The position numbers and the translations under genes were made by a program. Shown in pieces: positions 4,355 through 20,409 of a DNA stretch of 64,000 nucleotides. How positions within the stretch are numbered: the first letter of the stretch is position 1; each line of letters begins with the position of its first letter. This stretch comes from Marinobacterium jannaschii DSM 6295 (GTDB lineage Bacteria > Pseudomonadota > Gammaproteobacteria > Pseudomonadales > Balneatricaceae): contig NZ_KK211064.1 of NCBI RefSeq assembly GCF_000620085.1, positions 232,272-296,271 of the forward strand, given 5' to 3'. Under the pieces are notes generated by a model. That model was not told the origin of the DNA. It saw only the letters and a program-made list of their open reading frames with translations, and did not search any database.

Positions 4355-4400
4355 TAAAATATTAAAAAGATATCGCCTGTATCCTAAAAATCTATCCAGA
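4355..4400 (-). promoter_or_regulatory. Conserved 46-bp upstream element, copy 1 (torF-like gene)
   Basis: Aligned without gaps to 13467, 16700 and 20105. All four begin TAAAATAT on the plus strand, share A10, C20, TG at 24-25, AT at 27-28, AA at 33-34, T37, TAT at 39-41 and C43. This copy ends CTATCCAGA, against CTATTCAGG at 16737. It starts 135 bp upstream of the torF-like start codon. It may be a promoter with an operator. Confidence 0.6.
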
Positions 4401-4853
4401 GAATTTTTGATATAAAGGTTTAACTATCTCGTAGCTGTGTTGTGCGGTGCGATTTTTGGGAATATTGGCTGGATATCATTTTGTTTTTAAGTTGTTGTTT
4501 TATTTGGAGTGATTATAGGTTTATTCGAATTGTTAACTTAGATCAGGGCTATCAGTAAATCCTATTCATGGCATTAAAAAATTCGCATCCATTAATCTTT
4601 TAATGACGTTTTTGATAGCGTATAAATTAGTTAAGTTCTGTTCTGAGGCTGTTGTTGAAATTATCCACATCAGCTTGCACCCGATAATAAAAAGGAAAAG
4701 GTGTGCCTGTGAATATATATCCTGAATCCCTCCTGTTTCCTTGTGCGCAGAAGCGCCTGTCAGTCAGATACTGCTGACGGTGTTTGCTTTGATCTCTGCG
4801 CCGACCCTGTCCGGTAAAGAGACCCTCTGTCGCTGGCGTTCCAGCGTGTTTTG

Positions 4854-4877
4854 GCGCCTGTGATCAGGCGCTTTTTT
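4854..4877 (+). terminator. Terminator-like hairpin upstream of the chemoreceptor
   Basis: GCGCCTG, loop TGAT, CAGGCGC and then a run of six T, 67 bp before the chemoreceptor start. No gene ends just upstream, so it either ends a short unannotated RNA or acts as an attenuator in the chemoreceptor leader. Confidence 0.7.
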
Positions 4878-4943
4878 ATCGCTGCGAGATAGCCGCACCG
4901 GCAGGCGCGTAGCGACAGTTTTGACCACAAAGGCCGTCCCGGA

Positions 4944-7037
4944 ATGAAATCCCGCTCTATCTCTTTGCGCATTGCCCTGATTACCGGCAGCAGCCTGTTG
5001 CTGGCTATTGTTGCCGTCGTCAGTGTCAGCCTCTGGTACGCCAGCCAAACCCAGAAACAGCTCGACAGCCAGATGGATCAACAGTTGTCTCCTTTGGTGA
5101 CTGAACTGCTGCTGGCCAAGGCCCGCAGCCAGGCGGCCGATATCGGCCAGCAGTTGGCCGCTGGGATGGGGCTGGCGCGCTACCTGGCTGATACGCTGGA
5201 AGCTGAACTGGAAATACGCGGCCCGGTGCAGATCGAACGACAGCCGCTGAGCCAGCTGATCGGCGCGCTGTTGCAGCGCCACCCTAACCTGAGTGGGGCT
5301 TTTATCGTCTGGGAGCCGGATGCGATCGATACTGCCGACCGCCAGTTCCGTAATCAGGGTGCGCACTCGAATGAAAACGGTCAATTTGCCCCCTACTGGT
5401 TTCGTGATGGCGAGGCGGTGGCTGTGGAGCCGATCAGCCAGGGAGACATCTATAACCCGACCCGGCTGGATAACGGCAGCCGCCAGACCGAGTGGTATTA
5501 CTGTCCGCTGGAAAGCGCCGCAAACTGTATCGCCGAACCCTTTAGCTGGGAGGCGAACGGCCAGCAGATGCTGGGGACCTCGTTGACCGCCGCAATCCGT
5601 TATCGCGGTAAGGTGGTGGCGGTGGCGGGTGTGGATACCGAGCTGAGCTTCCTGCAGCAACTGGCGCAGGGGCTGGATCAGAGTCTCTATCAGGGCCAAG
5701 GCCGGGTCAGGATCTTCAGCCAGCGCCAGGTGCTGGCGGCGGATTCCGATCACCTCGATCCGGTGGCCGCCCTGAGTTCGCTGCGCTTTGCCACCGCTGG
5801 TGTCAGCCTGAGCCAGCAGGCGGGCCGTTCGGCGTTCCGGGTGGTGCAGCCGATACAGATTGCGGGCATTAATGCCCAGTGGACGCTGGTGGTGGACCTG
5901 CCGGCAGAGGTCGCCCTGGCGGCTTCCGGCCAGATCCGCGACGCCGTTGCACTGCTGTTCAGCGATAGCCTGCAGGGCCAGACCCTGGCCGGATTACTGC
6001 TGGCGTTGCTGGGGCTGGCGGTGGTCACCCTCAGTGCCCGCTCTATCGGTCGCAGTGTTTCCGCCGTGGCGGGACAGGTGGTGGCATTGGCCTCGCAGGA
6101 GGGGGACCTGACCAAACGGATCGCCTTGCAGCGCAACGATGAGATCGGCAGCCTGGCCCAGGGACTGGATCAGTTTATCCACAAGACCCATGAGATCGTC
6201 AGTGACGTCGCCGCTGAGGTTGGCAAGTTGCAACAGGCCTCAGGACAGAGTGCCGAGATATCCACTGCCACCGCGACCGGAATTTTGCAGCAACGCCAGG
6301 CGCTGGATCAGGTAGCAGCGGCGGTAACCGAGATGTCGGCCAATGCCCAGGAGGTCGCGGCTAATGCCGAACAGGCGGCGAGCGCCACCGCCAATGCCCG
6401 CGCGGCGGTGGATAACAGTGCCGCCCATGTGGATGAGAACCTGGAAGTGGTGCGTTCACTGACGGAAGAGGTCGCGGAAGCGGCACGGGTGATCAATCAG
6501 CTGGAACAGCGGAGCCAGGATATCAACCAGATTGTCGAAGTGATCCGCGGTGTCTCCGAGCAGACCAACCTGCTGGCACTAAACGCCGCCATCGAAGCGG
6601 CCCGGGCCGGTGATGCCGGCCGTGGTTTTGCCGTGGTCGCCGATGAGGTCAGGACCCTGGCGGGCCAGACCCAGCAATCCACCACCGAGATCCAGCAACT
6701 GATTGAAGCCCTGCAACAATACTCCGCCGGGGCGGTGGCGGCGATGCGCCGGGGTGAAAGTACCGCCCGGCAGTGTATCGATCAGGCCGAAAGCACCGCT
6801 CAGGGGCTGAACAAAGTGGTCAGCTCGATGGGACTGGTGGACGATATGGCGACCCAGATCGCCGGCGCCGCCGGACAGCAATATGCGGTGTCGGAATCGA
6901 TCACCGAAAGCCTGACCGCGATTCGCGATGTTGCTGCCGAGCTGGTGCAGGGGGCGGAACAGTCCGATCAGCACAGTGCCGAGTTGTCCCGGCTGGCACA
7001 GCAACTGGACAGCCAGATCAGTCGCTTCCGCTACTGA
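4944..7037 (+). CDS. Methyl-accepting chemotaxis protein with periplasmic Cache sensor
   Basis: A 697-residue chemoreceptor. An N-terminal membrane helix (about residues 9-31) leads into a periplasmic dCache-type ligand domain (about 40-330). A second helix follows at about 344-366, then a HAMP linker and the cytoplasmic signalling domain. The hairpin tip conserved in all receptors is present ([19 protein letters not shown], near residue 540) and would dock CheA/CheW. There is no obvious C-terminal CheR pentapeptide. dCache domains often bind amino acids, polyamines or organic acids; the ligand here is unknown. It is transcribed alone after a long leader. Confidence 0.92.
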
Positions 7038-7303
7038 ATTAGATATCCACAACCGGTTCGGGAGGCGCTGTCCGGAATCGGGTTGTGGGTAATTGTTAGC
7101 GTGTTTTTTATCAACAGGCAGCCGCTGGAGACAATGGCTGTGGAAAGATTTGCCGCTGAGTGTAGGCCGGGTTTCTATCCACAGCGCCTGCAGTCAGCCG
7201 GTGTCCGCCCGTGGCTAAATAGGCTAAATTAGAGCCCCTATTGCGCTGGCCCTGGAAGCGATCTTCCCTGTCAGCACCGGCATCAATCCCTTGGAGTCAG
7301 GCG

Positions 7304-9385
7304 ATGAGTAGCAGCCAGCAAAGCAAAGATAACCGTCACTACGCAGTCTGTCCCCACGACTGTCCCAGCACCTGTGCGCTGGAGGTCGAGAAGATCGATT
7401 CGCAGACCATCGGCCGGGTGCATGGCAGCAAAGACAACAGTTATACCGACGGTGTGATCTGCGCCAAAGTGGCGCGCTATGCCGAGCGGGTACACCACCC
7501 CGAGCGCCTGATGACGCCGCTGAAACGGGTCGGTGCCAAGGGCGTGGGTGTCGAAGCCTTTGAACCGATCAGCTGGGATGAGGCGCTGGACTGCATCGCC
7601 GAGCGCTTTAAGGCAATTGCAGCCGAGGATGGCAGTGAAGCGATCTGGCCCTACTTCTATGCCGGCACTATGGGCTGGGCCCATCGCGGCGCGGCCCATC
7701 GCCTGCGCCATGCCATGGGCTATTCGCGGCAGAAGGAGACTATCTGTGTCTCCATCGCCAACGCTGGCTGGCAGGCCGGGGTCGGCGCTAAGCGCGGCGT
7801 CGATGCCCGTGAGATTGTCGACAGCGAACTGATTGTGGTCTGGGGCGGCAACCCGGTGCATACCCAGATCAATGTGATGACCCATATCGCCAAGGCGGCG
7901 AAGAAGGGCGCTAAGCTGGTGGTGGTCGATCCCTATGAGACCCCGACCGCCCGTAAGGCGGATATGCACCTGATGCTGCGTCCCGGCACCGACGGTGCCC
8001 TGGCCTGTGCGGTGATGCACCAGATCCTGAAGGAGGGTCTGCAGGACCAGGCCTACCTCGAGCGCTACAGCGATTTTGATTCGGCGGTGCTTGAGCATCT
8101 GGCCGCTAAAACACCCGAATGGGCCGCCGGAATCACCGGCCTCAGCGTCGAGCAGATCATCGCCTTTGCCCGCCTCTACGCCTCTACCGGCAAGAGCTAT
8201 ATGCGCGTCGGCTACGGTATGAGCCGTTCCCGCAACGGTGCCTCCAACATGCATGCGGTTAGCTGCCTGCCGGTGCTCACCGGTGCCTGGCAGCACCAGG
8301 GCGGCGGTGCCCTCTATGGTCATGGCGAGATCTACAAGCCAATGGATGCCGCTTATCTGCACGGGCTGCAGCTCAGTGATCCCAAGGTACGGGAGCTGGA
8401 TATGTCCCGAATCGGCCCGGTGCTGACCGGCGACCCGCAGGACCTTGGTGATGGCCCCCCGGTGAAGGCTCTGTTTATCCAGAACACCAATCCGGTCATC
8501 GTCGCGCCGGAGTCCGCCAAGGTGCGTCAGGGCTTTATGCGTGACGACCTGTTTGTAGTGGTGCATGAGCAGATGATGACCGAAACCGCCGCCATGGCGG
8601 ATATCGTGTTGCCCGCCACCACCTTCCTGGAACATGACGATATCTATACCGCCAGTGGCCATACCCACCTGCAGGTCAGCAAGCAGGTGATCGAGCCGTT
8701 GGGCGAGTGTCGCAGCAACCATCAAGTAGTGTCAGAGCTGGCACGGCGCTTAGGTGTCGAACATGAACTGTTCCAGCGTTCAGCACTGGAACTGGTGGAT
8801 CAGGCCCTGGCCAATGGCGATCTGCCTTCCAGTGATGAGATCCACACCATGAAAGGCCTCGACCTGGCCCCGGACTTTGAGCAGGCCCACTGCCTCAATG
8901 GCTTCGGCCATGCCGACGGCCGTTTCCATTTCTATGCCGACTGGGCCGCCCAGGGCGATCACAGCGGCACGCTACCGACCCTGCCGGACCATGCCGAACT
9001 CACCGATGAAACCGACAGCGATCACCCCTTCCGCCTGGTGACAGCCCCGGCCCGAACCTTCCTCAACAGCAGCTTCACCGAAACCCCCGGCTCGCTGAAA
9101 AAAGAGAAGCAACCGCAGGCACTGATCAACCCGCAGCGTTGCGAAGCCTTAGGTGTCAGCGAAGGGGAGCTGGTCACCCTTGGCAATCAGCACGGAGAAA
9201 TCCGCGTCGCAGCCAAGCCGTTTACAGGCGTGCAGCCCGATGTGGTGATTGTCGAAGGGATCTGGCCTAACCACGCCTTTGTCGATGGCCTCGGTATCAA
9301 CGCCCTGGTCAGCGCCGAAGCCGCATTGCCCAACGGCGGCGCGGTATTCCACGATACTAAGGTGTGGATTGAGAAGAGCGGTTAA
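7304..9385 (+). CDS. Molybdopterin-dependent oxidoreductase (BisC/DMSO-reductase superfamily), cytoplasmic
   Basis: A 693-residue enzyme. The start at 7304 is chosen over an in-frame upstream start because GGAG lies seven bases before it and the protein then begins just ahead of the cluster motif. Cys16, Cys20, Cys24 and Cys53 form the N-terminal [4Fe-4S] binding pattern. The rest spans the molybdopterin domains and the C-terminal dinucleotide-binding domain (about residues 575-690). There is no twin-arginine signal, so it should act in the cytoplasm. No partner electron-transfer subunit or chaperone is adjacent. The family includes S- and N-oxide reductases and soluble formate-dehydrogenase-like enzymes; the substrate cannot be assigned. 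Confidence 0.85.
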   Translation: MSSSQQSKDNRHYAVCPHDCPSTCALEVEKIDSQTIGRVHGSKDNSYTDGVICAKVARYAERVHHPERLMTPLKRVGAKGVGVEAFEPISWDEALDCIAERFKAIAAEDGSEAIWPYFYAGTMGWAHRGAAHRLRHAMGYSRQKETICVSIANAGWQAGVGAKRGVDAREIVDSELIVVWGGNPVHTQINVMTHIAKAAKKGAKLVVVDPYETPTARKADMHLMLRPGTDGALACAVMHQILKEGLQDQAYLERYSDFDSAVLEHLAAKTPEWAAGITGLSVEQIIAFARLYASTGKSYMRVGYGMSRSRNGASNMHAVSCLPVLTGAWQHQGGGALYGHGEIYKPMDAAYLHGLQLSDPKVRELDMSRIGPVLTGDPQDLGDGPPVKALFIQNTNPVIVAPESAKVRQGFMRDDLFVVVHEQMMTETAAMADIVLPATTFLEHDDIYTASGHTHLQVSKQVIEPLGECRSNHQVVSELARRLGVEHELFQRSALELVDQALANGDLPSSDEIHTMKGLDLAPDFEQAHCLNGFGHADGRFHFYADWAAQGDHSGTLPTLPDHAELTDETDSDHPFRLVTAPARTFLNSSFTETPGSLKKEKQPQALINPQRCEALGVSEGELVTLGNQHGEIRVAAKPFTGVQPDVVIVEGIWPNHAFVDGLGINALVSAEAALPNGGAVFHDTKVWIEKSG

Positions 9386-9394
9386 TTAATTCAG

Positions 9395-9428
9395 CCAGCC
9401 CGGGTATTAGATCAGCTGCCTGGGCTGG
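9395..9428 (+). terminator. Hairpin after the molybdoenzyme gene
   Basis: CCAGCCCGGG pairs with CCTGGGCTGG across a 14-base loop, 10 bp after the stop codon. There is no T-run, so it is a weak or factor-assisted terminator at best. Confidence 0.4.
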
Positions 9429-9433
9429 AAATC

Positions 9434-9460
9434 GGTTGGGATAAGGCACGAACCCCAACC
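9434..9460 (+). repeat. Degenerate REP palindrome
   Basis: GGTTGGGAT, loop AAGGCACGAA, CCCCAACC. It has the same stem as the GTAG-headed REPs but lacks the GTAG head and has an altered loop. It lies 48 bp from an intact REP at 9509. Confidence 0.65.
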
Positions 9461-9508
9461 GTTCCTCAGTGCGAATAAACCAAAGCCCGCTTCAAGGGAG
9501 AAACTCGC

Positions 9509-9539
9509 CGTAGGTTGGGATGAGGTACGAATCCCAACA
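9509..9539 (+). repeat. REP palindrome (31 bp, short-loop class), right behind the transposase
   Basis: CGTAG head, stem GTTGGGAT / ATCCCAAC, loop GAGGTACGA. It lies 9 bp past the 3' end of the RAYT gene and faces the opposite way to the REP at 10134, so the transposase gene is bracketed by an inverted REP pair. Confidence 0.9.
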
Positions 9540-9547
9540 GCCCTGCC

Positions 9548-10078
9548 TTATTCGCCAAAACAGAGGCCCTGATCAAAACTCTCCTCAACTCCCCAATCCT
9601 CGGATAAAAATCCGTTGGCGACATAACGATGAAAGCTTGAATAAGGCCAATCAGTACAGCGATTTACCCAGCCATGTTTGACCGGGTTAAAGTGGATGTA
9701 ATCGAGATGGTTCCTGAAATCCTGTTCGTCACGAATCAGGTGTTCCCAATAGCGCCGCTGCCAGATACCCCGCTCACCTTTATATCGACGGCTGGCTGAG
9801 ATTTGCTCATCCTGGGGAAGCTCCCGGGAGAACGCGACTTTTATCAATCGCCAGCGTTTGGCAAAATCAGCATCACCCTCGGGCAGGGTCCAGAGAGTGT
9901 GAAGGTGATCGGGTAAAACCACTGCTGCATCGATATGGAAGGGATAACGGCGCTTTACCTTGGTGAAGGCGGCCCGTAAAAGATCAATATGACGTACCAG
10001 AAGATCCTGGCGGCGATCCGCCAGATTGACGGTAAAGAAGTAACAGGCACCCGCCTGGGTGCTGCGACGATATTGCAT
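9548..10078 (-). CDS. REP-associated tyrosine transposase (RAYT, Y1/HUH family)
   Basis: A 176-residue single-strand nuclease of the TnpA_REP type. The metal-binding HUH motif is PDHLH (H58, H60). The candidate catalytic tyrosine is Y127 in the C-terminal segment YIHFNPVKHG, which is characteristic of RAYTs. These domesticated relatives of IS200/IS605 transposases recognise REP hairpins with a 5' GTAG or GGAG and are thought to drive their dispersal. REPs with a GTAG head flank this gene on both sides, and more lie within the window. The ribosome site sits in the loop of a small hairpin just before the ATG. All visible catalytic residues are intact. Confidence 0.93.
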   Translation of the reverse strand: MQYRRSTQAGACYFFTVNLADRRQDLLVRHIDLLRAAFTKVKRRYPFHIDAAVVLPDHLHTLWTLPEGDADFAKRWRLIKVAFSRELPQDEQISASRRYKGERGIWQRRYWEHLIRDEQDFRNHLDYIHFNPVKHGWVNRCTDWPYSSFHRYVANGFLSEDWGVEESFDQGLCFGE

Positions 10079-10080
10079 TA

Positions 10081-10096
10081 TTCACATCCTTGTGAA
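10081..10096 (-). promoter_or_regulatory. Hairpin presenting the RAYT ribosome-binding site
   Basis: On the coding strand TTCACA - AGGA - TGTGAA, a perfect 6-bp stem with the Shine-Dalgarno AGGA as its loop, ending two bases before the start codon. The same structure precedes the truncated copy at 10452. Confidence 0.6.
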
Positions 10097-10133
10097 GTTT
10101 GTCTTATCTTTGATCTGGCCGGAGGTCGTATAT

Positions 10134-10164
10134 TGTTGGGATTCGTTCCTCATCCCAACCTACG
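10134..10164 (-). repeat. REP palindrome (31 bp, short-loop class), upstream of the intact RAYT
   Basis: Same stem and GTAG head as at 9509, with T for A at one loop position (CGTTCCTC on the plus strand). It also forms the 3' end of the truncated RAYT copy. An identical REP lies exactly 371 bp further on at 10505. Confidence 0.92.
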
Positions 10165-10449
10165 GGCTGATATATGTTCCTCATTTGGTAGTTCCCTGGA
10201 AAAAGCCGCTTTGATTAGCCGCCAGCGTCTGGCGTAGTCGGCATCTTCTGAGGGCAAGCACCAGATGCTATGTAGGTGATCCGGTAACACTACCATGGCC
10301 TCTATCTTAAAAGGGTGGCGTTGTTTCACCTGCCTTAAAGTGGTCCGCAAAAGATCAATATGACGTACCAGCAGATCCTGGCGCCGATCAGCCAGATTGA
10401 CGGTAAAGAAATAGCAGGCACCCGCCTGTGTGCTGCGGCGATATCGCAT
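10150..10449 (-). pseudogene. Truncated second copy of the RAYT transposase
   Basis: 99 codons aligning with residues 1-96 of the intact RAYT, including the HUH motif PDHLH at the same place. The reading frame then runs into the REP at 10134 (ending RRLG) and stops there. It lacks the catalytic tyrosine and the C-terminal part, so it cannot be an active nuclease by itself. The first ~35 codons and the leader are nearly identical to the intact gene, whereas the middle has diverged clearly. The repeat period is 371 bp, indicating an old tandem duplication that retained or regained identity at its 5' end. Confidence 0.88.
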
Positions 10450-10451
10450 AA

Positions 10452-10467
10452 TTCACATCCTTGTGAA
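10452..10467 (-). promoter_or_regulatory. Hairpin presenting the ribosome site of the truncated RAYT
   Basis: Identical TTCACA - AGGA - TGTGAA structure, 371 bp from the one at 10081. Confidence 0.5.
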
Positions 10468-10504
10468 GTTTGTCTTATCTTTGATCGGGCCGGAGGTCGT
10501 ATAT

Positions 10505-10535
10505 TGTTGGGATTCGTTCCTCATCCCAACCTACG
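10505..10535 (-). repeat. REP palindrome (31 bp, short-loop class)
   Basis: Identical to the REP at 10134, 371 bp away and in the same orientation, upstream of the truncated RAYT. Confidence 0.92.
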
Positions 10536-10744
10536 GGCTAAAAGTAGCATTTCACTGCATCGTATCTCTATACGAGCTTGAGCCATTCTTTTTTCATGCC
10601 ATGGAGCCAGTAATGAACCGATACCTTTTTCTATAAGAGTATCCCACATTTTTAGGGCTAGCTTCTCGCCTGGATATTCCATAATTTATGTTAGATGCTA
10701 TTTTGGTTGTAGTTATGATTTTAGGGGTAGGGCCTGTTTGTTTT

Positions 10745-11512
10745 CTAGTTCGTTAGTTGATTATCAATAATCATTAAACTAGAAAGTTCTTTGGCAGCTT
10801 TTCGAAGTGGTTTTCTTAAGCTCGGTTTCAGATGGCTCTGGGCCTCTGTTAGCGGAATACCCTTAAGCTTTAAAAAGATCGCTAGAGCGAAGATATGTTC
10901 TGCTTCTGACAGGTAGCCGCTGCCGCTTACCTGCCAGCCTTGGGAATCTGAGTCGGTGTATTGCCTGAAGTTGAAAGCCGAATTGGCCATAAAGATTCCG
11001 AAGCCGAGAAAGGTGGCGGTGATATCGGTCGCAAATTCCCAGTTATCCCAGCCGCCCGGCGGTGCTTCAGCTGCGGTACTGGTCAGATAGTGTGATAGTT
11101 CATGGGCAAGGGTGGCCACGAGCTGCATCGGTTGGGCGGTGAGTGATGGGTTATAGCTGATCGTTACGCCGCTTTCTGGCGCGGCCTGAAAGGTACCCAG
11201 TGGGCCATTGGGTTTATTTTGGATCGCAACGGTCGGTGCTATGCGTGGTGATACATCTTCTTCCTGGGCAACCAGGGTGCAGGGCCAGTGCTCCATGCCC
11301 GCATAACGTTTCACCCTGTTAAAGGTTTCGATAGAGGCTTCGTCGGCGCTGGTTACCTCTGAAGGGAAGAACTCGCGGGTTGGCAGTATCAAGCTGGCGT
11401 TGTTATGGAAATGCTGCTGGCCAAAGTTCCTCAGTAACCAGCCGTAGGTGGCGATCTGAAACTCCAGATCCTCTTCAGATAGCAGGGGCTTTGTCCTGAA
11501 AATACTAAACAT
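10745..11512 (-). CDS. Uncharacterised protein with HExxH zinc-protease motif
   Basis: A 255-residue protein that I do not recognise. The start at 11512 is preferred over one 45 bp upstream because AAGGAA lies directly before it. HELSHY (H137-E138-x-x-H141) is a zincin signature inside a helix-like segment. WEFATD some 17 residues later offers an acidic third ligand (E159 or D162). There is no signal peptide or membrane segment, so it is probably cytosolic. It is flanked by REP elements and AT-rich non-coding DNA, with no operon partner; the REP-rich setting suggests an accessory gene. Protease activity is inferred from the motif alone. Confidence 0.7.
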   Translation of the reverse strand: MFSIFRTKPLLSEEDLEFQIATYGWLLRNFGQQHFHNNASLILPTREFFPSEVTSADEASIETFNRVKRYAGMEHWPCTLVAQEEDVSPRIAPTVAIQNKPNGPLGTFQAAPESGVTISYNPSLTAQPMQLVATLAHELSHYLTSTAAEAPPGGWDNWEFATDITATFLGFGIFMANSAFNFRQYTDSDSQGWQVSGSGYLSEAEHIFALAIFLKLKGIPLTEAQSHLKPSLRKPLRKAAKELSSLMIIDNQLTN

Positions 11513-11636
11513 ACTCTTTCCTTGTGTATGTAATCCGTTGCTTCCAATCACTGTCACTCTAGCGCGAATCTAGCAGCAATAGATGGCTGAAACCAGCGTT
11601 GGCCGTTGGATCATTTGGTACGAGAGGAGTGGTAGC

Positions 11637-11667
11637 CGTAGGTTGGGATGAGGTACGAATCCCAACA
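11637..11667 (+). repeat. REP palindrome (31 bp, short-loop class)
   Basis: CGTAG head, stem GTTGGGAT / ATCCCAAC, loop GAGGTACGA; identical to 9509. Confidence 0.9.
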
Positions 11668-11997: not shown

Positions 11998-13392
11998 TTA
12001 GATAAAGCCTTCGGCTTTAAGGTCGTCCATGGTGGCTTCGATACTTTCACGCAGGGTGGCCACGAGGAAGTCGATGTGTTCCTTGGTCAGGGTCAGCGGT
12101 GGTGACAGTACATTCATATGCGCCAGCGGACGTACGATCAGGCCACGGGCCTGGCAGTGGTCGGCGATACGGTTACCGACCTTGGCATCCGGGTTGATCA
12201 GTTCCTTGGTTTCCTTGTTGGCGACGTTTTCGATGCACATCATGAACTTACGGCCGCGCACATCACCGACGATCTGCAGGTCGATCAGGCCTTTGACCTG
12301 CTCTTCGAAGTAAGCACCCATATCCTTCACATGGCCGCAGATATTTTCGCGTTCCATGATTTCGATATTCTTCACCCCGGCGGCACAGCTGACCGGGTGA
12401 CCGGAGTAAGTGTAGCCGTGGGTAAACAGGGCGCCGTCTGCCTGTGGCTTGCTGATCACCTCGTAGATATCGTCAGACATGATGGTGGCGCCCAGCGGCA
12501 GGTAACCGGAGGTCAGGCCCTTGGCGCAGGTGATCATGTCCGGCACGATGCCGAACTCGTCTTCGGAGGCGAACATATGGCCCAGGCGACCGAAGGCGGT
12601 TACCACCTCATCGGAGATGTAGAGCACGCCGTACTTGCGGCAGACGTCCAGGGTACGCTTGTGGTAACCCTCTGGCGGTACGATAACGCCACCGGCACCC
12701 ATGATCGGCTCGGCGAAGAAGGCGGCAACATTGTCCGGCCCCAGTTCGAGGATCTTGTCTTCCAGCTCCTGTACCTTCTCGTCACAGAAGTCTTCCAGGC
12801 TCTGGCTGCTTGGACGACGGTATGGGTTCGGGCAGGAGATATGGTGTACCAGCTCCTCTTCGATATCGAAGCCGATATGGTCGAATTTCACCCCGGTGAT
12901 CGACATCGCCATATAGGTGCTGCCGTGGTAGCCGTCGATGCGGGAGATGATCTTCTTCTTGCTCTTCTTACCCAGCTGGTTGAAGTAGAAGTGGATGATA
13001 CGGACAGCGGTGTCGTTCGCCACTGAGCCGCCGCAACCGTAGAACACGTGGTTCAGGTTGCCCGGTGCCAGCTCCGCCAGTTTGGCTGCCAGCTGGGCTG
13101 CCGGTACGGTGGTGTGGTGACCGAAGCTGGAGTAGTACGGGATCTGCATGATCTGATCGGCAATGGCGTCGGCCATCTCTTTGCGGGCATAACCGATGTT
13201 GACGCACCAAAGACCGCCGATGCCGTCCAGGTACTCGCGGCCTTCACCATCTTTGACATGGACGTTGTCGCTGTCGGCCAGCACCATAGAGCCGGTTTCT
13301 TTGAAGGTTGAAAAGTCAGTCCAGGGATGAACGTAGTGGTCTTTGTCCTGCTGCCACACTTCCTGCATATTGATCTGTTTGTTATCTGACAT
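11998..13392 (-). CDS. Class III (omega) aminotransferase, PLP-dependent
   Basis: A 464-residue fold-type I enzyme. The PLP lysine is K291 in CAKGLTSGYLPLGA, and D261 in ISDEVVTAFGR contacts the cofactor nitrogen. Overall sequence and length fit the SpuC-like group that moves a terminal amino group from putrescine, taurine, beta-alanine or similar amines to pyruvate. It is followed by a terminator at 11744 and preceded by a 46-bp element shared with the deacylase/permease and monooxygenase operons. A role in catabolism of a diamine or omega-amino acid is inferred; the exact donor is open. Confidence 0.88.
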   Translation of the reverse strand: MSDNKQINMQEVWQQDKDHYVHPWTDFSTFKETGSMVLADSDNVHVKDGEGREYLDGIGGLWCVNIGYARKEMADAIADQIMQIPYYSSFGHHTTVPAAQLAAKLAELAPGNLNHVFYGCGGSVANDTAVRIIHFYFNQLGKKSKKKIISRIDGYHGSTYMAMSITGVKFDHIGFDIEEELVHHISCPNPYRRPSSQSLEDFCDEKVQELEDKILELGPDNVAAFFAEPIMGAGGVIVPPEGYHKRTLDVCRKYGVLYISDEVVTAFGRLGHMFASEDEFGIVPDMITCAKGLTSGYLPLGATIMSDDIYEVISKPQADGALFTHGYTYSGHPVSCAAGVKNIEIMERENICGHVKDMGAYFEEQVKGLIDLQIVGDVRGRKFMMCIENVANKETKELINPDAKVGNRIADHCQARGLIVRPLAHMNVLSPPLTLTKEHIDFLVATLRESIEATMDDLKAEGFI

Positions 13393-13466
13393 TTTCGGGA
13401 ATGCTCCTCAGTTTTTGTTTTCATGCCGTTTCACAATATCCACACTAATCAGTCGCCAGTTATCAG

Positions 13467-13512
13467 TAAAATATAATTTTTAGCTCGATTGCATTACTAA
13501 TTTCTATGCAGG
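13467..13512 (-). promoter_or_regulatory. Conserved 46-bp upstream element, copy 2 (aminotransferase)
   Basis: Begins TAAAATAT and ends CTATGCAGG on the plus strand; 23 of the first 34 positions match the copy at 16700. It starts 75 bp upstream of the aminotransferase start codon, in the same orientation as the other copies. Confidence 0.55.
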
Positions 13513-13814
13513 CTGTAGGTGCCGCCGTTGGGGGCTTTGCGCTGCATCGGCCAGCAAGCAGCGGGCTTGTCCGGGATGAAAACGTCTATAAGGGGCCGTC
13601 AGTTGTGTGCGCTACCCCTGATAAGTTTAGTGGCTGGGGGCTGCTTCGGCGGGCTGCTGCGGCCTGGCGGACGATAGTGGTGGCGGTCATGGCGGTGTTG
13701 TGGAAAGCGCAGCCGGGCACTCCCAGGCGTTTGCAGGGTATTTACAGAGAGCGGTGGCGCGCCTGGCGGCTTTTACCCGCAGTTACATAGGACTTTGATA
13801 GAAAGCACGGGCAT

Positions 13815-13842
13815 AAAAAACGGCGCCCTGGGGCGCCGTTTT
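13815..13842 (-). terminator. Rho-independent terminator (minus strand)
   Basis: CGGCGCC / GGCGCCG stem with a 4-base loop, flanked by AAAAAA on the left and TTTT on the right. It ends the APC permease transcript 48 bp past its stop. Confidence 0.88.
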
Positions 13843-13889
13843 GGGGAGTTCTGACCGCAGTGGTTTTTCAGGCCACGGTCGCTGGACGA

Positions 13890-15314
13890 TCAGTCTGCAT
13901 TCAGTACTTTTTCGATCGGTTCCGGCGTGAACAGCTTCTTCTTCATCACCACTTTGACCCAGAACACGCCGATCACCGAAACAACACCCAGCACCACACC
14001 GGTGGCGGTAAAGATCTGCTCGCTCAGCTCAGGCGCTGGGGAAGCGTAGATCACGGCGTAGATCATACCGGCGATACCGATGATCTGTGGCAGCGGGTAG
14101 AACGGTGTCTTGTAAGGACGCTTCAGGTCCGGATAACGCTTACGCAGTACCACCACGTTGATATGGGTGATGATGTACGCCAGCAGCCAGGCGATGGCGG
14201 CGGAGATCAGCAGCAGGCCGATCGCATCCGGGTTATCACGCATGATCAGCATCGGCAGGCCGGTAACCGCAGCGGTAAAGAGTACCGCGACCCAAGGCGT
14301 TTTGTTACCCGAGCTCAGTTTCGCCAGCTGCGGGAAGGCCTGGCCGTTTTTCGCCATGCCGTACAGCATCCGGGGAATGGCTGCCAGCGAGGTGTTTACG
14401 GTACTGCAGGTAGCCGTGACTGCAGCCACCGCCAGGAAGGTCAGGCCGGCATCGCCGAACACGGCTTTGGCAAAGTCGTAGTGGGGCAGGGTAGAGCCCG
14501 CCAGGTCATCAGCCGGGATATAGAACAGCGCGCCCAGGCAGTAGATGGCGATAGTGACGAAGATCACGGTCACGCCGATGGTCATAGCGCGGGGAATATT
14601 GCGCTCCGGATTTTTAGACTCCTCAACCAGTGGGCAGACAAACTCGGCGCCCACGTAACCCCAGATTGCCAGCGCCACCAGGGTGATCACTTCGCCTCCC
14701 AGCGGGTTCCAGTTGGCGGTCAGGTCGATACCTTCAGGGTGCGGGTTGGCCACGCCGGTGACGGCACTCAGGCCCAGGATCAGCAGCACAACGACCATGA
14801 TAAACGCCAGCGCGGACTGCAGCTTGGCGAAGACGTCGATGCCCATCAGGTTAAGCGCGGTAAAGATGGCCAGCAGGCCAAAACCGACGCTGTATTGCGG
14901 GAACATGCCCGGATAGATCTTCTCGATAATAAAATCGACCAGTAACAGCTCGGCGGAAAGGGCGAACATCGCCACCACCACATAGCCGGAGAATACCGCC
15001 AGGATGGCGGGGAAGTGGCCGATCGCCACCTCGGTATAGCTACTCAGACTGCCCGCGCGGGGAATCATCAGGGACAGTTCAGAGAAGGAGAAGACATAGG
15101 TCAACGCCAGGATAAAACCGATTGCCAATGGGATAATGAATCCCAGCCCGGCGATACCTGCACCCTGCAGCATCAGAACCATGACGCCCTGGGAGACCAC
15201 CAGACCCACAGCAACGGCGAGCAGGGAACCCAGTCCCAAGACGCGATTGAAGCCGCTTTTCTGTTCTTGTTTCATCTGGTCGGCGCCCGAAACGTAGGTA
15301 GCATTGTCAGACAT
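13890..15314 (-). CDS. APC-family amino acid/polyamine permease
   Basis: A 474-residue membrane protein with about twelve hydrophobic segments. It has the APC signature in helix 1 (LGSLLAVAVGLVVSQG, an unwound glycine-rich segment) and a cytoplasmic tail ending KKLFTPEPIEKVLNAD. Members import amino acids, ethanolamine or polyamines by proton symport. It lies 135 bp downstream of the M20 deacylase on the same strand and ends at its own terminator. A palindrome at 15369 sits in its upstream region, so it may also have its own promoter. The substrate probably matches the neighbouring deacylase and aminotransferase. Confidence 0.9.
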   Translation of the reverse strand: MSDNATYVSGADQMKQEQKSGFNRVLGLGSLLAVAVGLVVSQGVMVLMLQGAGIAGLGFIIPLAIGFILALTYVFSFSELSLMIPRAGSLSSYTEVAIGHFPAILAVFSGYVVVAMFALSAELLLVDFIIEKIYPGMFPQYSVGFGLLAIFTALNLMGIDVFAKLQSALAFIMVVVLLILGLSAVTGVANPHPEGIDLTANWNPLGGEVITLVALAIWGYVGAEFVCPLVEESKNPERNIPRAMTIGVTVIFVTIAIYCLGALFYIPADDLAGSTLPHYDFAKAVFGDAGLTFLAVAAVTATCSTVNTSLAAIPRMLYGMAKNGQAFPQLAKLSSGNKTPWVAVLFTAAVTGLPMLIMRDNPDAIGLLLISAAIAWLLAYIITHINVVVLRKRYPDLKRPYKTPFYPLPQIIGIAGMIYAVIYASPAPELSEQIFTATGVVLGVVSVIGVFWVKVVMKKKLFTPEPIEKVLNAD

Positions 15315-15368
15315 TTTTCGCTCCTGATTGGGTTTTTATATTTTTTGCCTCAGGTGAGCTTGTATTCA

Positions 15369-15389
15369 GTATCCGCTAAAAACGGATAC
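15369..15389. promoter_or_regulatory. Perfect inverted repeat upstream of the APC permease
   Basis: GTATCCG - CTAAAAA - CGGATAC, 55 bp upstream of the permease start. There is no T-run on either side, so an operator is more likely than a terminator. Confidence 0.45.
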
Positions 15390-15449
15390 CTGACCTGCTC
15401 TGTTAGTGTTTTGCTCTGTATATCCTCAGTTCCTCCTGCCGGGGGCGTG

Positions 15450-16607
15450 TTAAGCACTAAGTTGTTTAATCAGGCGCTGCACAAAGGCCTCGCACTGCTG
15501 AATCTGGCTGTCCTCGATAAACTCGTCGGGCTTATGGCCCTGGTCCATGCTGCCGGGACCGCAGACGACCGTGGGGATACCCAGCACCTGGCTGAACAGG
15601 CCCCCCTCGGTGCCAAAGTTGATGTTGCCCTTCGCCGGGTTGTCGGTGAGGTTGCGCACGAAAGCCACCACCTCGGCATCGTCGGCGGTGCTCAGGCCCG
15701 GATATTCGGTGGTGATATCGATCTCGATGGCGCATTCCGCCGCCACCGCTTGCATCTCGCTTTCCAGGCGGTCGGCGAAGCTACGGAACTGCTGCAATAG
15801 CTGGTGCGGGTCTTCCGCCGCAATGTTGCGGATCTCAAACAGGAAGCTGCAGTGGTTCGGCACTATATTCAGCGCGGTGCCACCCTGCACGGTGCCGGTG
15901 TGTACGGTGCTGTAGGGGATGTCGTAGCCCTGCTCGAACGGGCCTTCGGTCTTCTTCGCCAGTGCCAGGCGTTCCAGCCAGCCGATCAGGCGGGCGGCAT
16001 AGTTGATGGCATTGACGCCCAGCGGCGCCATGCCGGAGTGACACTCCTTACCTTTCACCGTCACCCGGGCGGCCAGCTTGCCCTTATGGGCGGTGACCAC
16101 CTGCATGTTGGTCGGCTCGCCGATGATGCAGACCGCCGGCTTCAGCGGATGACCCTGCAGGGTATCGATCAGGCGGCGCACGCCGACGCAACCGATCTCT
16201 TCGTCATAGGAGAAGGCCAGGTGGATCGGCGTATGCAGGGGCTGCTGTACCATCTGCGGCACGGCGGCCAGTACCACGGCGATAAAGCCCTTCATATCGG
16301 TGCTGCCGCGACCGTAGTAGCGGCCATCTGCTGCGGTCAGCTCATAGGCCGGACGGGTCCAGTGCTGGCCGGTGACCGGTACGGTATCGGTATGGCCGGA
16401 GAGCATTACACCTGCGCGATCGGCCGGGCCGATGGTGGCGTAGAGGTTGGCTTTACTGTCTTCCTCGTTATACACCCGCTGGCTTTCGACGCCATGACTG
16501 CTGAGGTACTGCTGCACATAGGCCATCAGCTCCAGGTTGGAGTGGGCGCTGGTGGTATCGAAACCGATCAGCTGGCGCAGAATATCGAGGGTCAGGGGGT
16601 TAGCCAT
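15450..16607 (-). CDS. argE: M20-family deacylase, ArgE (acetylornithine deacetylase) type
   Basis: A 385-residue zinc amidohydrolase. The start at 16607 is chosen because CGGAG lies six bases before it and it gives the usual ArgE length. Metal and catalytic residues are visible: H72 and D74 in GHTDTVPV, D104 in GSTDMKG, and E136/E137 in SYDEEIG. ArgE removes the acetyl group from N-acetylornithine. Here the gene is not with arg biosynthesis but upstream of an APC permease and near an omega-aminotransferase, so deacylation of an imported N-acylated amino acid is as likely as arginine synthesis. A copy of the shared 46-bp element lies 93 bp upstream. Confidence 0.82.
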   Translation of the reverse strand: MANPLTLDILRQLIGFDTTSAHSNLELMAYVQQYLSSHGVESQRVYNEEDSKANLYATIGPADRAGVMLSGHTDTVPVTGQHWTRPAYELTAADGRYYGRGSTDMKGFIAVVLAAVPQMVQQPLHTPIHLAFSYDEEIGCVGVRRLIDTLQGHPLKPAVCIIGEPTNMQVVTAHKGKLAARVTVKGKECHSGMAPLGVNAINYAARLIGWLERLALAKKTEGPFEQGYDIPYSTVHTGTVQGGTALNIVPNHCSFLFEIRNIAAEDPHQLLQQFRSFADRLESEMQAVAAECAIEIDITTEYPGLSTADDAEVVAFVRNLTDNPAKGNINFGTEGGLFSQVLGIPTVVCGPGSMDQGHKPDEFIEDSQIQQCEAFVQRLIKQLSA

Positions 16608-16984
16608 GGTATCTCCGGTCTGTTCTTTCTGGGGTGCTTGCGGCGCCATCGGCGCGGCACTAGCAACGAAATCCAGAATAGGCAGATGCCCTGCATTCTT
16701 AAAATATTATTAATTTTTCAAATGGATTATAAAAATCTATTCAGGGTTTCCAGAATCGTCTTGGAATCTCGGTTTTAATTTAAAAAATATATATAAAACA
16801 AAATATTAAGAATGGTTCGGCCAGCATGGCTTTTATTTTTTATAAAACCGATCCTCAGGCGAGGAGGGTTGAATCGGGGCTTTAAAGCGGTTTTTTGTGC
16901 GCCTTTTGATGCCAGCGGCAACCCTTTGCCTGCCAGCCGAACGGCGCTTTATATACTTAAGCTGATGCCATTGGGGGCTGAGCA
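16608..16984. other. 377-bp divergent promoter region (argE-like / cyclic-nucleotide-fold gene)
   Basis: Very AT-rich between 16690 and 16850. It holds the shared element at 16700-16745 serving the minus-strand operon. No further gene is visible. Confidence 0.7.
16700..16745 (-). promoter_or_regulatory. Conserved 46-bp upstream element, copy 3 (argE-like/APC)
   Basis: Begins TAAAATATTATTAA, has CAAATGGAT in the middle and ends CTATTCAGG. It matches the copy at 20105 at 30 of the first 37 positions and the copy at 4355 at 26 of 37. Confidence 0.65.
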
Positions 16985-17497
16985 ATGAAAACAGAGAATT
17001 CTGCAGCGGTGATTGAATCCCTGGGCTTTGACTACCTGCGTGAGCTGGCGACCTTCGGTGCCCTGTCGGATACCGCGATCCGCGCCCTGATCGAGCAGGG
17101 TGAAGTGACGTCGCGGCGCAAGGGGGAAAACCAGGATGTCTCGACGGCGATGGCCGGGGGCTTCTATGTGGTGTTGCAGGGGGATGTGGGTTACTACCGC
17201 CACTGCGATAACCATGATGTGCTGACGCGCCACTTTCGCAGCGGCGACCAGATGGGCTTCGATGTGATGATCGGGCTGTTTCCCAGTAATGGCGTGGAAG
17301 TGGCGTTTGAGGACAGCCTGGTGCTGCAGATCAGTAGTGATCAGTTCTTCCAGTTCCACCTCGACTTTCCCGCCGAGTTTGGCTTGCTGATGATCAACCT
17401 GTCGCGGGAGCTGTCGCGCGAGATCAATATGCTGGAAGCGGTGATCGGCGACAGTACCGGCTGGCTTGGTGTTGGTCAGAAAAAAGAAGCCCCCTAG
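16985..17497 (+). CDS. Cyclic-nucleotide-binding-fold protein without DNA-binding domain
   Basis: A 170-residue protein resembling the beta-roll of the CRP/FNR cyclic-nucleotide-binding fold (about residues 20-125, e.g. GGFYVVLQGDVGYYRH and FRSGDQMGFDVMIG), followed by a helix like the CRP dimerisation helix. It ends where a helix-turn-helix would begin, so it is not a complete transcription factor. The classical phosphate-binding arginine motif is not evident, so ligand binding is uncertain. It is divergent from the argE-like operon. Its last codons overlap a minus-strand terminator. The function is unknown; a sensor or regulatory partner is possible. Confidence 0.65.
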   Translation: MKTENSAAVIESLGFDYLRELATFGALSDTAIRALIEQGEVTSRRKGENQDVSTAMAGGFYVVLQGDVGYYRHCDNHDVLTRHFRSGDQMGFDVMIGLFPSNGVEVAFEDSLVLQISSDQFFQFHLDFPAEFGLLMINLSRELSREINMLEAVIGDSTGWLGVGQKKEAP

Positions 17498-17516
17498 CGC
17501 GGGACGCTAAGGGGCT
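17481..17516 (-). terminator. Rho-independent terminator (minus strand)
   Basis: On the minus strand AGCCCCTTAGCG, loop TCCCG, CGCTAGGGGGCT then TCTTTTTT. It ends the monooxygenase-ridA-DUF1028 transcript and overlaps the end of the convergent gene. Confidence 0.88.
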
Positions 17517-17535
17517 GATGGGACTGATGAGGCGA

Positions 17536-18207
17536 TTACTCGTCGCCCGGTACGCCATAGGACTCGGCGTTGGCCGGGTCCAGGGCGCGGGTGATATAGG
17601 CCTGCATCTGCGGCTGGTAGTTCTGCCATACCATCCGTAACTCGGTGATCGGCTCGATATGCCAGTCGACCCGCAGGTCGACCACCGGCCACTTTGGTTC
17701 TGCCGCCATCAGCAGGCCAGCGGAGTGAATCGGGCCCAGTTCGCCGCCCGCGGTAAGGCCCGCTTCCAGGGCGCTGAGCAGGCGTTCGGCCAGGTGGCCG
17801 CTGCTGGCTTCAAAGGCCTCGACCATCGCCTGGGGCACGGCGGTGTTAGCCAGCAGGTTGCCCATGGCAATGCAGTTATTGCCTTCGGCGGTGGCGTAGA
17901 TCCCCAGCGCCTGTTCGCCACTGAAAGTCGTGCCTTCACCTCGGGTGTTAAGGACGCCCAGCTGACGCCACTGCACATCGCTGTCGGCCTCAGCCAGGGC
18001 TTTCATCACCTGAGCCGGTGACTGGCCTTCTGCCAGCAGGTCCAGCGCCAGCGGACCCAGGTCCGGGTTGGTAATATTCTGGGTCAGGGCCACACCGGTA
18101 CCGCTGCGGACAAAGGCGCAGCGGCTGGCGACACTGATGCTGGAGGAGGTGATAGCGCAACCGACCATGCCGGTATCCGGGCAGATGCCCGCAATGGAAA
18201 ATGTCAT
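17536..18207 (-). CDS. DUF1028 protein (Ntn-hydrolase-like)
   Basis: A 223-residue protein of the DUF1028 family: N-terminus MTFSIAGICPDTGMVGCAITS, then a conserved GVALTQNITNPDLGP segment. The family has an Ntn-hydrolase-like fold and recurs next to RidA and amine or amino-acid catabolic genes. The reaction is unproven; amide or lactam hydrolysis is a common guess. It starts 10 bp after the ridA stop with AAGGAG ahead of its ATG, so the two are translated from one message. It is the last gene before the terminator at 17481. Confidence 0.85.
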   Translation of the reverse strand: MTFSIAGICPDTGMVGCAITSSSISVASRCAFVRSGTGVALTQNITNPDLGPLALDLLAEGQSPAQVMKALAEADSDVQWRQLGVLNTRGEGTTFSGEQALGIYATAEGNNCIAMGNLLANTAVPQAMVEAFEASSGHLAERLLSALEAGLTAGGELGPIHSAGLLMAAEPKWPVVDLRVDWHIEPITELRMVWQNYQPQMQAYITRALDPANAESYGVPGDE

Positions 18208-18217
18208 GGTTGGCTCC

Positions 18218-18637
18218 TTACAGCTGATCGTCAGGGATCACGGCGATCACATCGATCTCCATCAACCACTCTGGCTGAGCCAGTGCCTGGACGACCAGGC
18301 CGGTGGAGATCGGAAAGACCCCTTTCATCCACTTGCCGGTCTCGCGGTAGACCGCTTCGCGGAAGCGCGGATCGGTGATGTAGGTGGTGGTTTTGACGAT
18401 ATGGCTCATATCGGAGCCGGCCTCTTCCAACAGCTGCTTGACGTTCTTCATCGCCTGGTCGGCCTGGGCTGCCGGGTCTCCCAGACCGACCAGCTTGCCC
18501 TCGAAGTCGGTACCGACCTGGCCGCGCACATAGACGGTGTTTCCAGCGCGTACGGCCTGGCAGAGATCGTTATCCAGGGTCTGGTTCGGATAGGTCTCTT
18601 TAGTGTTGAACATGCGGATTCGGGTATGTGTGGGCAT
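18218..18637 (-). CDS. RidA-family (YjgF/YER057c/UK114) enamine/imine deaminase
   Basis: A 139-residue single-domain RidA homologue. The open frame extends further upstream, but 18637 is chosen because GGGAG precedes it and the RidA fold begins there. RidA proteins form trimers and hydrolyse reactive enamine or imine intermediates released by PLP- or flavin-dependent enzymes. It sits between a flavin monooxygenase and DUF1028, so it would fit cleaning up or channelling the imine made by that oxidation. Sequence alone does not identify which RidA subfamily substrate is used. Confidence 0.88.
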   Translation of the reverse strand: MPTHTRIRMFNTKETYPNQTLDNDLCQAVRAGNTVYVRGQVGTDFEGKLVGLGDPAAQADQAMKNVKQLLEEAGSDMSHIVKTTTYITDPRFREAVYRETGKWMKGVFPISTGLVVQALAQPEWLMEIDVIAVIPDDQL

Positions 18638-18681
18638 TAACGGGCTCCCATTGTGCGGTTTTATATGACTGGCAAATAAAT

Positions 18682-18703
18682 GGACAGGCCCGTGGGCCTG
18701 TCC
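18682..18703 (-). terminator. Strong hairpin between monooxygenase and ridA
   Basis: GGACAGGCCC / GGGCCTGTCC with a 2-base centre; on the minus strand it is followed by ATTTATTT rather than a pure T-run. It could partially end monooxygenase messages or set expression ratios within the cluster. Confidence 0.5.
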
Positions 18704-18711
18704 TTGAGGGC

Positions 18712-19980
18712 TTAGCGCTGTGACGAGTCGCGGTATGCCAGGTACTTGCGCTGGGTCGCGATGTGATCGGCAATATGTTTGGCGTCGTGCCATACGCCCC
18801 AGATAAAGGTGGAGCCACGACGGGACAGCCACGGCAGGCCGACAAAGTAGACGCCTGGCTCGGTGGAGACGCCGCGCTGGTGGGCCGGTTTGCCGTTTTC
18901 GTCGAAGGCGTTCACCTTCAGCCAGCTGTAGTCCACCTTGAAGCCGGTAGCCCAGATAATCGAGGTGATGCCTGCTGCCGCCAGGTCCAGCTGCTGGATT
19001 GGGTTGCTCATGCACTCAGGGTCTGCCAGCATCTTGCGGGCTTCCGGTTCTTCCGGCAGGTCGAGACCGTTACGCTCGATGTAGGCATCGGCGGCATCCA
19101 GCAGGTCGAGGTAGTTCTTATCGCCACGGGCAACGTTTTCAACCAGGTCAGAGCGGAAGCTTACGCTGCCGTTGTTAAAGGCCTCAGTCAGGCCAACCAG
19201 GGTGATGCCCTGATGCGCCAGGGCGCGGAAATCGACAGTCCCCTTGCCTCCGTGGGCACCGGTCACGGCGATGGTAACGTGCTCTGAACCCGGCTTCATT
19301 GCCGCTGCATCCCACTCGCCGAGCACGCCCAGCCACCAGCAGAAGTCGCGGTTACGGTAGGAGCGTGGCGGACGGTCATGGGCACCGACTGAGAGGTGAA
19401 CCTGCTTGCCGGCCCGGTTAAGCTCATCGGCAATCTGTACGCCGGAAGAGCCTGCGCCAACCACCAGTACGCCACCCTCCGGCAGCTGTTCCGGGTTGCG
19501 GTAATCGGCGGAATGGATCTGCAGGATGTTGTCATCCTTAGGTGCAATCGGCGGGATAACCGGGGTCTGGAACGGTCCGGTTGCGGCCACGACACGGTTG
19601 GCTTCGATCAGGCCCTCAGAGGTTTCGATGGTGAAACCCGGACGTTCGCTGTTGCGCTCGACCTTTTTCACTTCGACGCCGGTACGGATAGGGGCGTTGA
19701 ATTTCTCGGCGTAGGCAACGAAGTAATCGGCGACATCCTCTTTAGGGACAAAGTCGTCATCAGCAAAGCCTTCGAACTGCAGACCTGGGAAGCGGTCGTG
19801 CCATGCCGGGCCGTTAGCGACCAGCGAGTCCCAGCGTCCGGTGCGCCATTTTTCCGCGATACGGTTGCGTTCCAGTACCAGGTGAGGCACTTCCAGTTTA
19901 GTCAGGTGTTCGCTCATGGCCACGCCGGCCTGACCTGCACCAATAACAAGCGTATCAATTTCGATCTTTTCAACTGTCAT
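18712..19980 (-). CDS. Flavin-containing monooxygenase (NAD(P)/FAD, CzcO/YUCCA-like)
   Basis: A 422-residue flavoprotein with two Rossmann motifs: FAD-binding G14-G16-G19 in VIGAGQAGVAMSE and NADPH-binding G175-G177-G180 in VVGAGSSGVQIAD. Between them is QIHSADYRNP, resembling the class B monooxygenase fingerprint, and near the C-terminus IWATGFKVDYSWL, the usual ATG motif. Such enzymes hydroxylate amines or soft nucleophiles. Gene order (monooxygenase, RidA, DUF1028) suggests oxidation of an amine whose product RidA hydrolyses. A copy of the shared 46-bp element lies 125 bp upstream. The substrate is unknown. Confidence 0.88.
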   Translation of the reverse strand: MTVEKIEIDTLVIGAGQAGVAMSEHLTKLEVPHLVLERNRIAEKWRTGRWDSLVANGPAWHDRFPGLQFEGFADDDFVPKEDVADYFVAYAEKFNAPIRTGVEVKKVERNSERPGFTIETSEGLIEANRVVAATGPFQTPVIPPIAPKDDNILQIHSADYRNPEQLPEGGVLVVGAGSSGVQIADELNRAGKQVHLSVGAHDRPPRSYRNRDFCWWLGVLGEWDAAAMKPGSEHVTIAVTGAHGGKGTVDFRALAHQGITLVGLTEAFNNGSVSFRSDLVENVARGDKNYLDLLDAADAYIERNGLDLPEEPEARKMLADPECMSNPIQQLDLAAAGITSIIWATGFKVDYSWLKVNAFDENGKPAHQRGVSTEPGVYFVGLPWLSRRGSTFIWGVWHDAKHIADHIATQRKYLAYRDSSQR

Positions 19981-20409
19981 GTCTGGGACCCTTTGTTGTT
20001 ATTCAGTCGTTCAAGGGAGTGGTTACGAGAAGCTGGCTACGACCTGGGCTGGTCAGTGCTTGCTCCTGAAGTTGAGTTCAGCGTATGACAGGGTCTTGTA
20101 TTGATAAAATATTATTAAGCTTACAAATGGATCAGAAATTTTTATGCTACGTCTTTGTAGCAGCTTGTGCCTGCTCGCTGCCCTCCACCTCTCCGGGGCT
20201 GTCGCGTGGCGGCAATGTCTTATCAGTGCTGTCAGATTGTCCGGACGCTTTCTCGTCCCATTGCAGAAAATTGTTTATATACTGGTACTTAGCCGGAACG
20301 AATTGAGGTCGAGGGTAAGAGGGGCGGATTGCCCCTGTTTCACCGGACAAGCGGTCTGCCAAGCGACCTGTCCGTTCCTAAAGAAGTCTGAGTTTTAAGG
20401 AGTGAAACC
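19981..20409. other. 429-bp divergent promoter region (monooxygenase / ghrA)
   Basis: Contains the shared element at 20105-20150 for the minus-strand operon and, at the right edge, the AAGGAG ribosome site of ghrA. Short open frames in between show no recognisable product. Confidence 0.65.
20105..20150 (-). promoter_or_regulatory. Conserved 46-bp upstream element, copy 4 (monooxygenase-ridA-DUF1028)
   Basis: Begins TAAAATATTATTAA and carries CAAATGGAT; 30 of the first 37 positions match the copy at 16700. The right end is weaker (TTATGC, then divergent). Confidence 0.6.

Follow-up and report, generated by a model that had tools for sequence, protein, structure and literature searches.

Bacterial breakdown of histamine is relevant to seafood and cheese. 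The hin proteins of Pseudomonas, as listed in excerpts from PMC8231116 and PMC6467879, comprise the permease HinA, the aminotransferase HinC, the aldehyde dehydrogenase (ALDH) HinD, the FAD monooxygenase HinF, the enamine deaminase HinL, the amidases HinH and HinG, the aspartase HinI and the regulator HinK. Imidazole-4-acetate is reported as the effector of P. aeruginosa HinK in an excerpt from PMC8231116, and a portion of PMC10912698 gives the HinK box as T-N11-A. The classical LysR promoter layout, according to extracts from PMC8407307 and PMC12609908, consists of a T-N11-A dyad near -65 and a second site over the -35 region. In a search of the open-access literature, we recognised no description of a hin operator outside Pseudomonas.

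The window, that is, the whole 64-kb stretch of DNA analysed here, contains four 46-bp elements at positions 4355-4400, 13467-13512, 16700-16745 and 20105-20150, all on the minus strand. Re-reading the window sequence confirmed these positions and the common orientation given in the preliminary description, together with its count of 21 invariant columns of 46 and the end CTATNCAG common to three of the four copies. The elements had been placed in non-coding DNA, and indeed none overlaps an identified gene; copy 3 overlaps just a plus-strand ORF called mechanically (15804-16778), which runs antisense to the M20 gene. From the element to the likely start codon there are 134 bp before torF (ATG 4220), 74 bp before the aminotransferase gene (ATG 13392), 92 bp before the M20 gene (ATG 16607, with GGAG in front of it; 50 bp if the longer ORF, starting at 16649, is taken) and 124 bp before the monooxygenase gene (ATG 19980).

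With up to three mismatches allowed, the invariant-base pattern occurred at four places in the 5.18-Mb genome, namely the four window copies, and the reversed control pattern at none. When scored with a matrix built from the copies of other genomes, whose rows came from searches seeded partly with the window copies, the four copies reached 88.8, 81.8, 56.4 and 35.9, the next window site being at 6.4; the same matrix scored no higher than -2.0 anywhere in 20 simulated windows, and no higher than 19.4 when 10 x 64 kb of AT-rich intergenic DNA was simulated. The claim that the elements are conserved beyond chance was thus upheld by the pattern scan with its reversed control and by the simulated-DNA controls. 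The dyad TGNAT-N11-ATNCA occurs exactly three times in the window, each time inside one of three copies, and the fourth copy, before the monooxygenase gene, has it with one mismatch (left arm AGCAT). As a genome-wide test the bare dyad was discarded as too loose, with 52 places versus 16 for the reversed control.

For comparison, stretches of DNA around pattern groups from 15 relatives were scanned for copies, and the flanks of 47 copies from 14 genomes, window included, were aligned, keeping sites that scored above 33 and leaving out G035 (a near copy of G047) and G023 (weak). This alignment revealed that the 46-mer is the upstream part of a promoter module of about 73 bp, since conservation continues for about 28 bp past it towards the gene, the torF copy excepted. 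Because the copies had been picked on columns 1-43, conservation past those columns is informative: A47 and T48 are each present in 44 of the 47 copies and C50 in 35, and a -10-like TAnnnT at columns 63-68 has T63 in 46, A64 in 44, C67 in 36 and T68 in all 47. The module is laid out as a dyad in columns 0-20, an AT block TTAATAATATTTTA in columns 30-43, a second ATNCA in columns 47-51, 31 bp after the first, and TAnnnT, about 20 bp beyond TATTTTA. The dyad contains the T-N11-A LysR box (T4 in 46/47, A16 in 47/47). In the alignment on which the module model R1 is based (A2; 57 of 107 collected sequences, including three window copies and a copy left of the window and leaving out the torF copy), dyad symmetry is strongest when centred on column 10, and the right dyad arm has its best repeat 31 bp further on (0.559, followed by 0.444 at 27; shifts 20-44 tested).

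If transcription started about 7 nt after TAnnnT, as the pattern of conservation suggests, the dyad centre would lie near -65 and the second site near -35, as in the classical LysR promoter with its recognition (RBS) and activation (ABS) sites. The sequence fits a reading of the dyad as the RBS, of the AT block and second ATNCA as the putative activation site and of TAnnnT as the -10. Unlike the classical case, the activation half is very strictly conserved here (TATTTTA in 46-47 of 47 copies), and the dyad core differs with the gene that follows, most aspartase and ALDH genes being preceded by an A-rich core and most others by a T-rich one. The preliminary description had suggested TATTTTA as a possible -10 region, a proposal that we reject because of the conservation of TAnnnT about 20 bp further downstream, outside the selecting columns; this choice of -10 is itself drawn from conservation. 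It had further placed an activator site upstream, at the CCTG block, with the ATNCA block 16 bp upstream of TATTTTA. An upstream activator site stands, but ATNCA forms a single dyad with the TG of CCTG, each being one of its arms, in place of a -35 and a separate activator site.

Each module in the window lies on the minus strand before a gene or operon on that strand. The one at 20077-20149 (RBS 20128-20148; AT block and second ATNCA 20097-20118; -10-like TACGCT 20080-20085; model E 8.4e-15) precedes an operon for a HinF-like flavin monooxygenase (18712-19980; PF13738, with TIGR04046 below its cut-off), a HinL-like RidA-type enamine deaminase (18218-18640, approximate ends; PF01042, covering residues 152-260 of the longer ORF 18218-19015) and a DUF1028 protein, HinH-like by gene order (17536-18207; PF06267). 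The module at 16672-16744 (RBS 16723-16743; AT block and ATNCA 16692-16713; -10-like TATTCT 16675-16680; model E 2.9e-16) precedes genes for a HinG-like M20 amidase resembling acetylornithine deacetylase (15450-16607; PF01546, NF005710) and a HinA-like APC-family permease (13890-15314; PF13520). At 13439-13511 (RBS 13490-13510; AT block 13459-13480; -10-like TAGTGT 13442-13447; model E 1.4e-9) a module whose second ATNCA reads ATAAC precedes a class III aminotransferase gene (11998-13392; PF00202, NF005447 over its cut-off), the HinC-like role of which was assigned by comparison with excerpts from PMC6467879 and PMC8231116. The fourth, at 4355-4400, is a partial module (RBS 4378-4398 and the TATTTTA block; model E 1.6e-5, model positions 1-46 only) before a putative porin gene of the TorF family (3543-4220; TIGR02001); it lacks the downstream half, the second ATNCA and -10 being out of register. 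Since the order monooxygenase-RidA-DUF1028-M20 in Halomonas and other loci equals hinFLHG, the DUF1028 protein was taken to correspond to HinH and the M20 amidase to HinG.

Synteny with one relative (G001) led us to suspect an aspartase operon just left of the window. There, a LysR gene (C1:227320-228264), a fifth module (C1:228379-228451, score 67.5) and the aspartase and ALDH genes follow in a row, the three genes lying 1.9-5 kb (LysR about 4 kb) and the module, between the LysR gene and the aspartase-ALDH operon, 3.8 kb left of the window. Run on the whole genome, the module model, which had been built with four of the five genome copies, gave five matches at E<=1, all in this one cluster (four in the window and one left of it). 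The six enzyme and permease genes in the window, together with aspartase, ALDH and LysR to its left, make a complete hin gene set under modules. Orthologous operons stand behind the copies of relatives, i.e., monooxygenase-RidA-DUF1028, M20-APC permease, class III aminotransferase, aspartase-ALDH and TorF-like porin, of which the window holds the first three and the porin; in some relatives an operon for a PotD-type ABC transporter is also preceded by a module. The locus resembles the HinK regulon of P. aeruginosa and P. putida U in having a LysR protein 40% identical over its full length, the same enzyme set with the hinFLHG order, and the T-N11-A box (as given in a portion of PMC10912698). 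It differs in that each cluster has two to five modules, also before aspartase and a porin, in that the aspartase carries an extra N-terminal domain, and in that regulator and hin genes are mostly in one cluster.

The aspartase of the regulon (L074:12532-14382, left of the window; L086:11302-13140) has about 140 extra N-terminal residues, aspA models covering residues 143-607 of 616. In a predicted model from L086 (pLDDT 83.5), the N-terminal part aligns with cyclic-nucleotide-binding(-homology) and CRP-type domains (6syg: Z 13.6, rmsd 2.6, 123 residues). On this model, a histamine-pathway enzyme may be under nucleotide-type control; a literature search for the extra domain found nothing. Divergent from module 3, a plus-strand gene (16985-17497) encodes a protein of 170 aa that has a weak, sub-threshold hit to a cyclic-nucleotide-binding domain (PF00027, E 7.5e-5) and relatives at the same place in G011 and G025; it resembles the aspartase N-domain weakly (probability 2.6) and had no match among PDB sequences at E 0.01. 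Adjoining the porin gene, a plus-strand gene (4944-7037) encodes a chemoreceptor whose sensor part matches 7prq, McpU (6f9g) and the histamine receptor TlpQ (6fu4, E 4e-24), and which may sense histamine or polyamines. A minus-strand gene for a REP-associated tyrosine transposase (9548-10078; NF047646) lies between the oxidoreductase and aminotransferase genes. Genes for an EamA transporter, a LysR protein and a histidinol-dehydrogenase-like protein (81-3405) are also found near the hin cluster in several relatives.

Of 21 LysR proteins placed in a tree, ten adjoin modules, and these ten form one clade (100/99). The best match to its Pontibacterium member in the genome studied here was 76% identical, and the next LysR protein 26%. 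The PDB sequences nearest to this LysR were 3fzv and 6m5f (HinK), with 220 bits, followed by the CysB family with 92 bits. For the Marinobacterium sedimentorum orthologue, an AlphaFold model (mean pLDDT 87.6) had its best structural match in 6m5f, an entry with the title HinK of P. aeruginosa (40% identity, Z 27.6, rmsd 15.1, 285 residues), 3fzv being level with it (Z 27.5); we read the large rmsd of this modelled structure as a probable difference in domain position. Judged by its best PDB match, 6m5f, as would be expected of a HinK orthologue, the protein is most likely a HinK-like regulator. Other candidates were set aside. The LysR genes of the window (1132-2031, 22486-23379 and 24983-25852) fall outside the module-accompanying clade, two of them on long branches; an Lrp/AsnC protein (26012-26479) is one of 15 AsnC-domain matches in the genome; and a reading of TGNAT/ATNCA as an ArgR box was dropped on account of the different half-site spacing of ArgR boxes.

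Across 144 genomes, own included, the invariant-base pattern was found at 46 places in 23 genomes, versus 17 places for the reversed control, and 34 of these places clustered in sets of two to five, no more than 23 kb apart. We also scanned 76 LysR loci of named genomes, graded by LysR identity as close (at least 55%), intermediate (39-46%) or distant (the rest). With the first matrix (cut 22), a module was present at 54 of 57 close, one of seven intermediate (L139) and one of 12 distant loci (L146, 24.0); ten of the close loci had given sequences to the matrix and one more was a near copy, and without these the count is 43 of 46. The second matrix (cut 25), which drew partly on these same loci, gave 54/57, 1/7 and 0/12, respectively. 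The three close loci without a module are L093, which ends just behind LysR, L103 and L126. The 106 sites that the second matrix gave at close loci precede monooxygenase (38), ALDH (16), aspartase (13), aminotransferase (12), M20 (5), RidA (4), TorF (3), ABC (2) and APC (1) genes, other ORFs (6) or no called gene (6); two sites fall inside a homologous ORF.

Among 390 genomes of the order, all seven LysR proteins with at least 57% identity were accompanied by a module. In the 15 genomes with a LysR of 36-42% identity, the module was detected in three at E<=1e-4 (G185, G212, G379) and in two more at 0.01 (G330, G367; LysR 39% identical), the latter two before the monooxygenase gene of a hinFLHG-like operon adjoining LysR. 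The other ten had no module at E<=0.01; therefore, the letters of the operator are not fixed across all HinK-like proteins. At E<=1e-4, a cut picked after the table was seen, 11 of the 390 genomes had the module, 22 the LysR (E<=1e-50) and ten both (Fisher p 3.5e-13); at the original cut of 0.01 the numbers were 46, 22 and 12. One of the module searches of the 390 genomes used stricter filters and lost weak matches. Module-like matches also occurred beside a different LysR in G294 and between a different LysR gene and a gene for a protein of about 400 aa in L166, L167, L168, L170, L221 (7216-7288) and L069; in L069 and L221 that LysR is CidR/CynR-like and the gene next to it codes for an MFS transporter, assignments that all fall short of curated cut-offs. 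More than one LysR type may have the strict AT block in common. Scattered matches elsewhere in the 5.18-Mb genome, looked for with both the pattern scan and the module model, were not found, and the upstream regions of orthologous genes in relatives proved conserved. The preliminary description of a promoter-associated element, read on the minus strand and shared by amine-catabolism and porin genes, is supported by these data, and its suggestion of a regulon agrees with the distribution of the module both within the genome and across genomes.

Collectively, these results lead us to propose, with a probability of about 0.85, that a LysR regulator of the HinK type controls histamine catabolism through this element, which would be its operator and promoter, with binding, inducer and transcript starts inferred. 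Ectoine, polyamine and uracil-type pathways had been considered before the hin set was recognised. The same LysR module could instead serve a gene set for another imidazole or amine, such as imidazoleacetate or a polyamine, histamine not being the main substrate. This view draws on the PotD-like ABC transporter operon that follows a module in some relatives and on P. aeruginosa PA0222, a histamine-induced binding protein that, according to an excerpt from PMC8231116, binds GABA and not histamine; however, the whole published hin set with its hinFLHG order is present here, along with a HinK-like regulator and the aspartase, and we consider another substrate unlikely.

A nearly invariant TATTTTA located before genes would also be expected of a constitutive or other sigma-70 promoter family in which this motif is the -10 and some unnamed activator acts at CCTG. 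Yet TAnnnT in columns 63-68 is equally invariant and in promoter register, and the dyad, the 31-bp repeat and the association with a single clade of LysR proteins agree with a LysR module, which makes such a family very improbable. We give almost no credence to a dispersed mobile repeat (REP or MITE) that came to stand before genes by accident: despite several copies in one region and the transposase gene at 9548-10078, no copy occurs elsewhere in the genome, all have a single orientation relative to the next gene, and other genera and families retain them, but not their flanks, before orthologous genes.

Under the preferred reading of a HinK-type operator, a tetramer of the LysR protein would be anchored by one dimer on the dyad near -65, with the second dimer covering the AT block near -35. 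The downstream dimer would shift when imidazole-4-acetate was bound, a link between regulator and inducer taken over by analogy from P. aeruginosa, and RNA polymerase would be recruited to TAnnnT. The genes switched on would provide uptake through the APC permease, and perhaps the porin, and conversion of histamine via imidazole acetaldehyde, imidazoleacetate and aspartate to fumarate.

The dyad core (columns 8-12) was scored as A-rich or T-rich. In the named loci, 60 of the 61 promoters of monooxygenase, aminotransferase, M20, RidA, ABC and porin (TorF) genes have a T-rich core, and 24 of the 29 promoters of ALDH and aspartase genes an A-rich one; these counts omit 12 sites in all, namely five without a called gene (one T-rich, four A-rich), six before other ORFs (none and four) and one before an APC permease gene (A-rich). 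In the first set of 47 copies (Oceanospirillaceae-type), the core is A-rich in all seven aspartase promoters, T-rich in eight and A-rich in four monooxygenase promoters, and A-rich in one of 11 aminotransferase promoters, that of the window, by one base. With these exceptions, the polarity is a strong tendency. The activation half and the -10 keep one orientation whichever type of core is present. That the module carries a polarity code in its dyad core seems doubtful to us; if it did, one LysR protein could give the steps of the pathway unequal basal levels or unequal responses to the effector.

Genome comparison showed that a 73-bp module of fixed geometry, a predicted promoter, stands before orthologous hin-type operons in many gammaproteobacteria, and that its occurrence follows the LysR clade whose closest solved structure is that of HinK. 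We judge it to be a genuine, well-conserved LysR operator-promoter, most likely of a HinK-type histamine regulon. It would provide a base-resolved and genome-clean operator for the histamine regulon across marine and halophilic gammaproteobacteria, with the likely regulator and effector named, and would tie histamine use to a porin and an unusual aspartase. With its strictly conserved activation half, it would be well suited to studies of how LysR tetramers read this part of their promoters.
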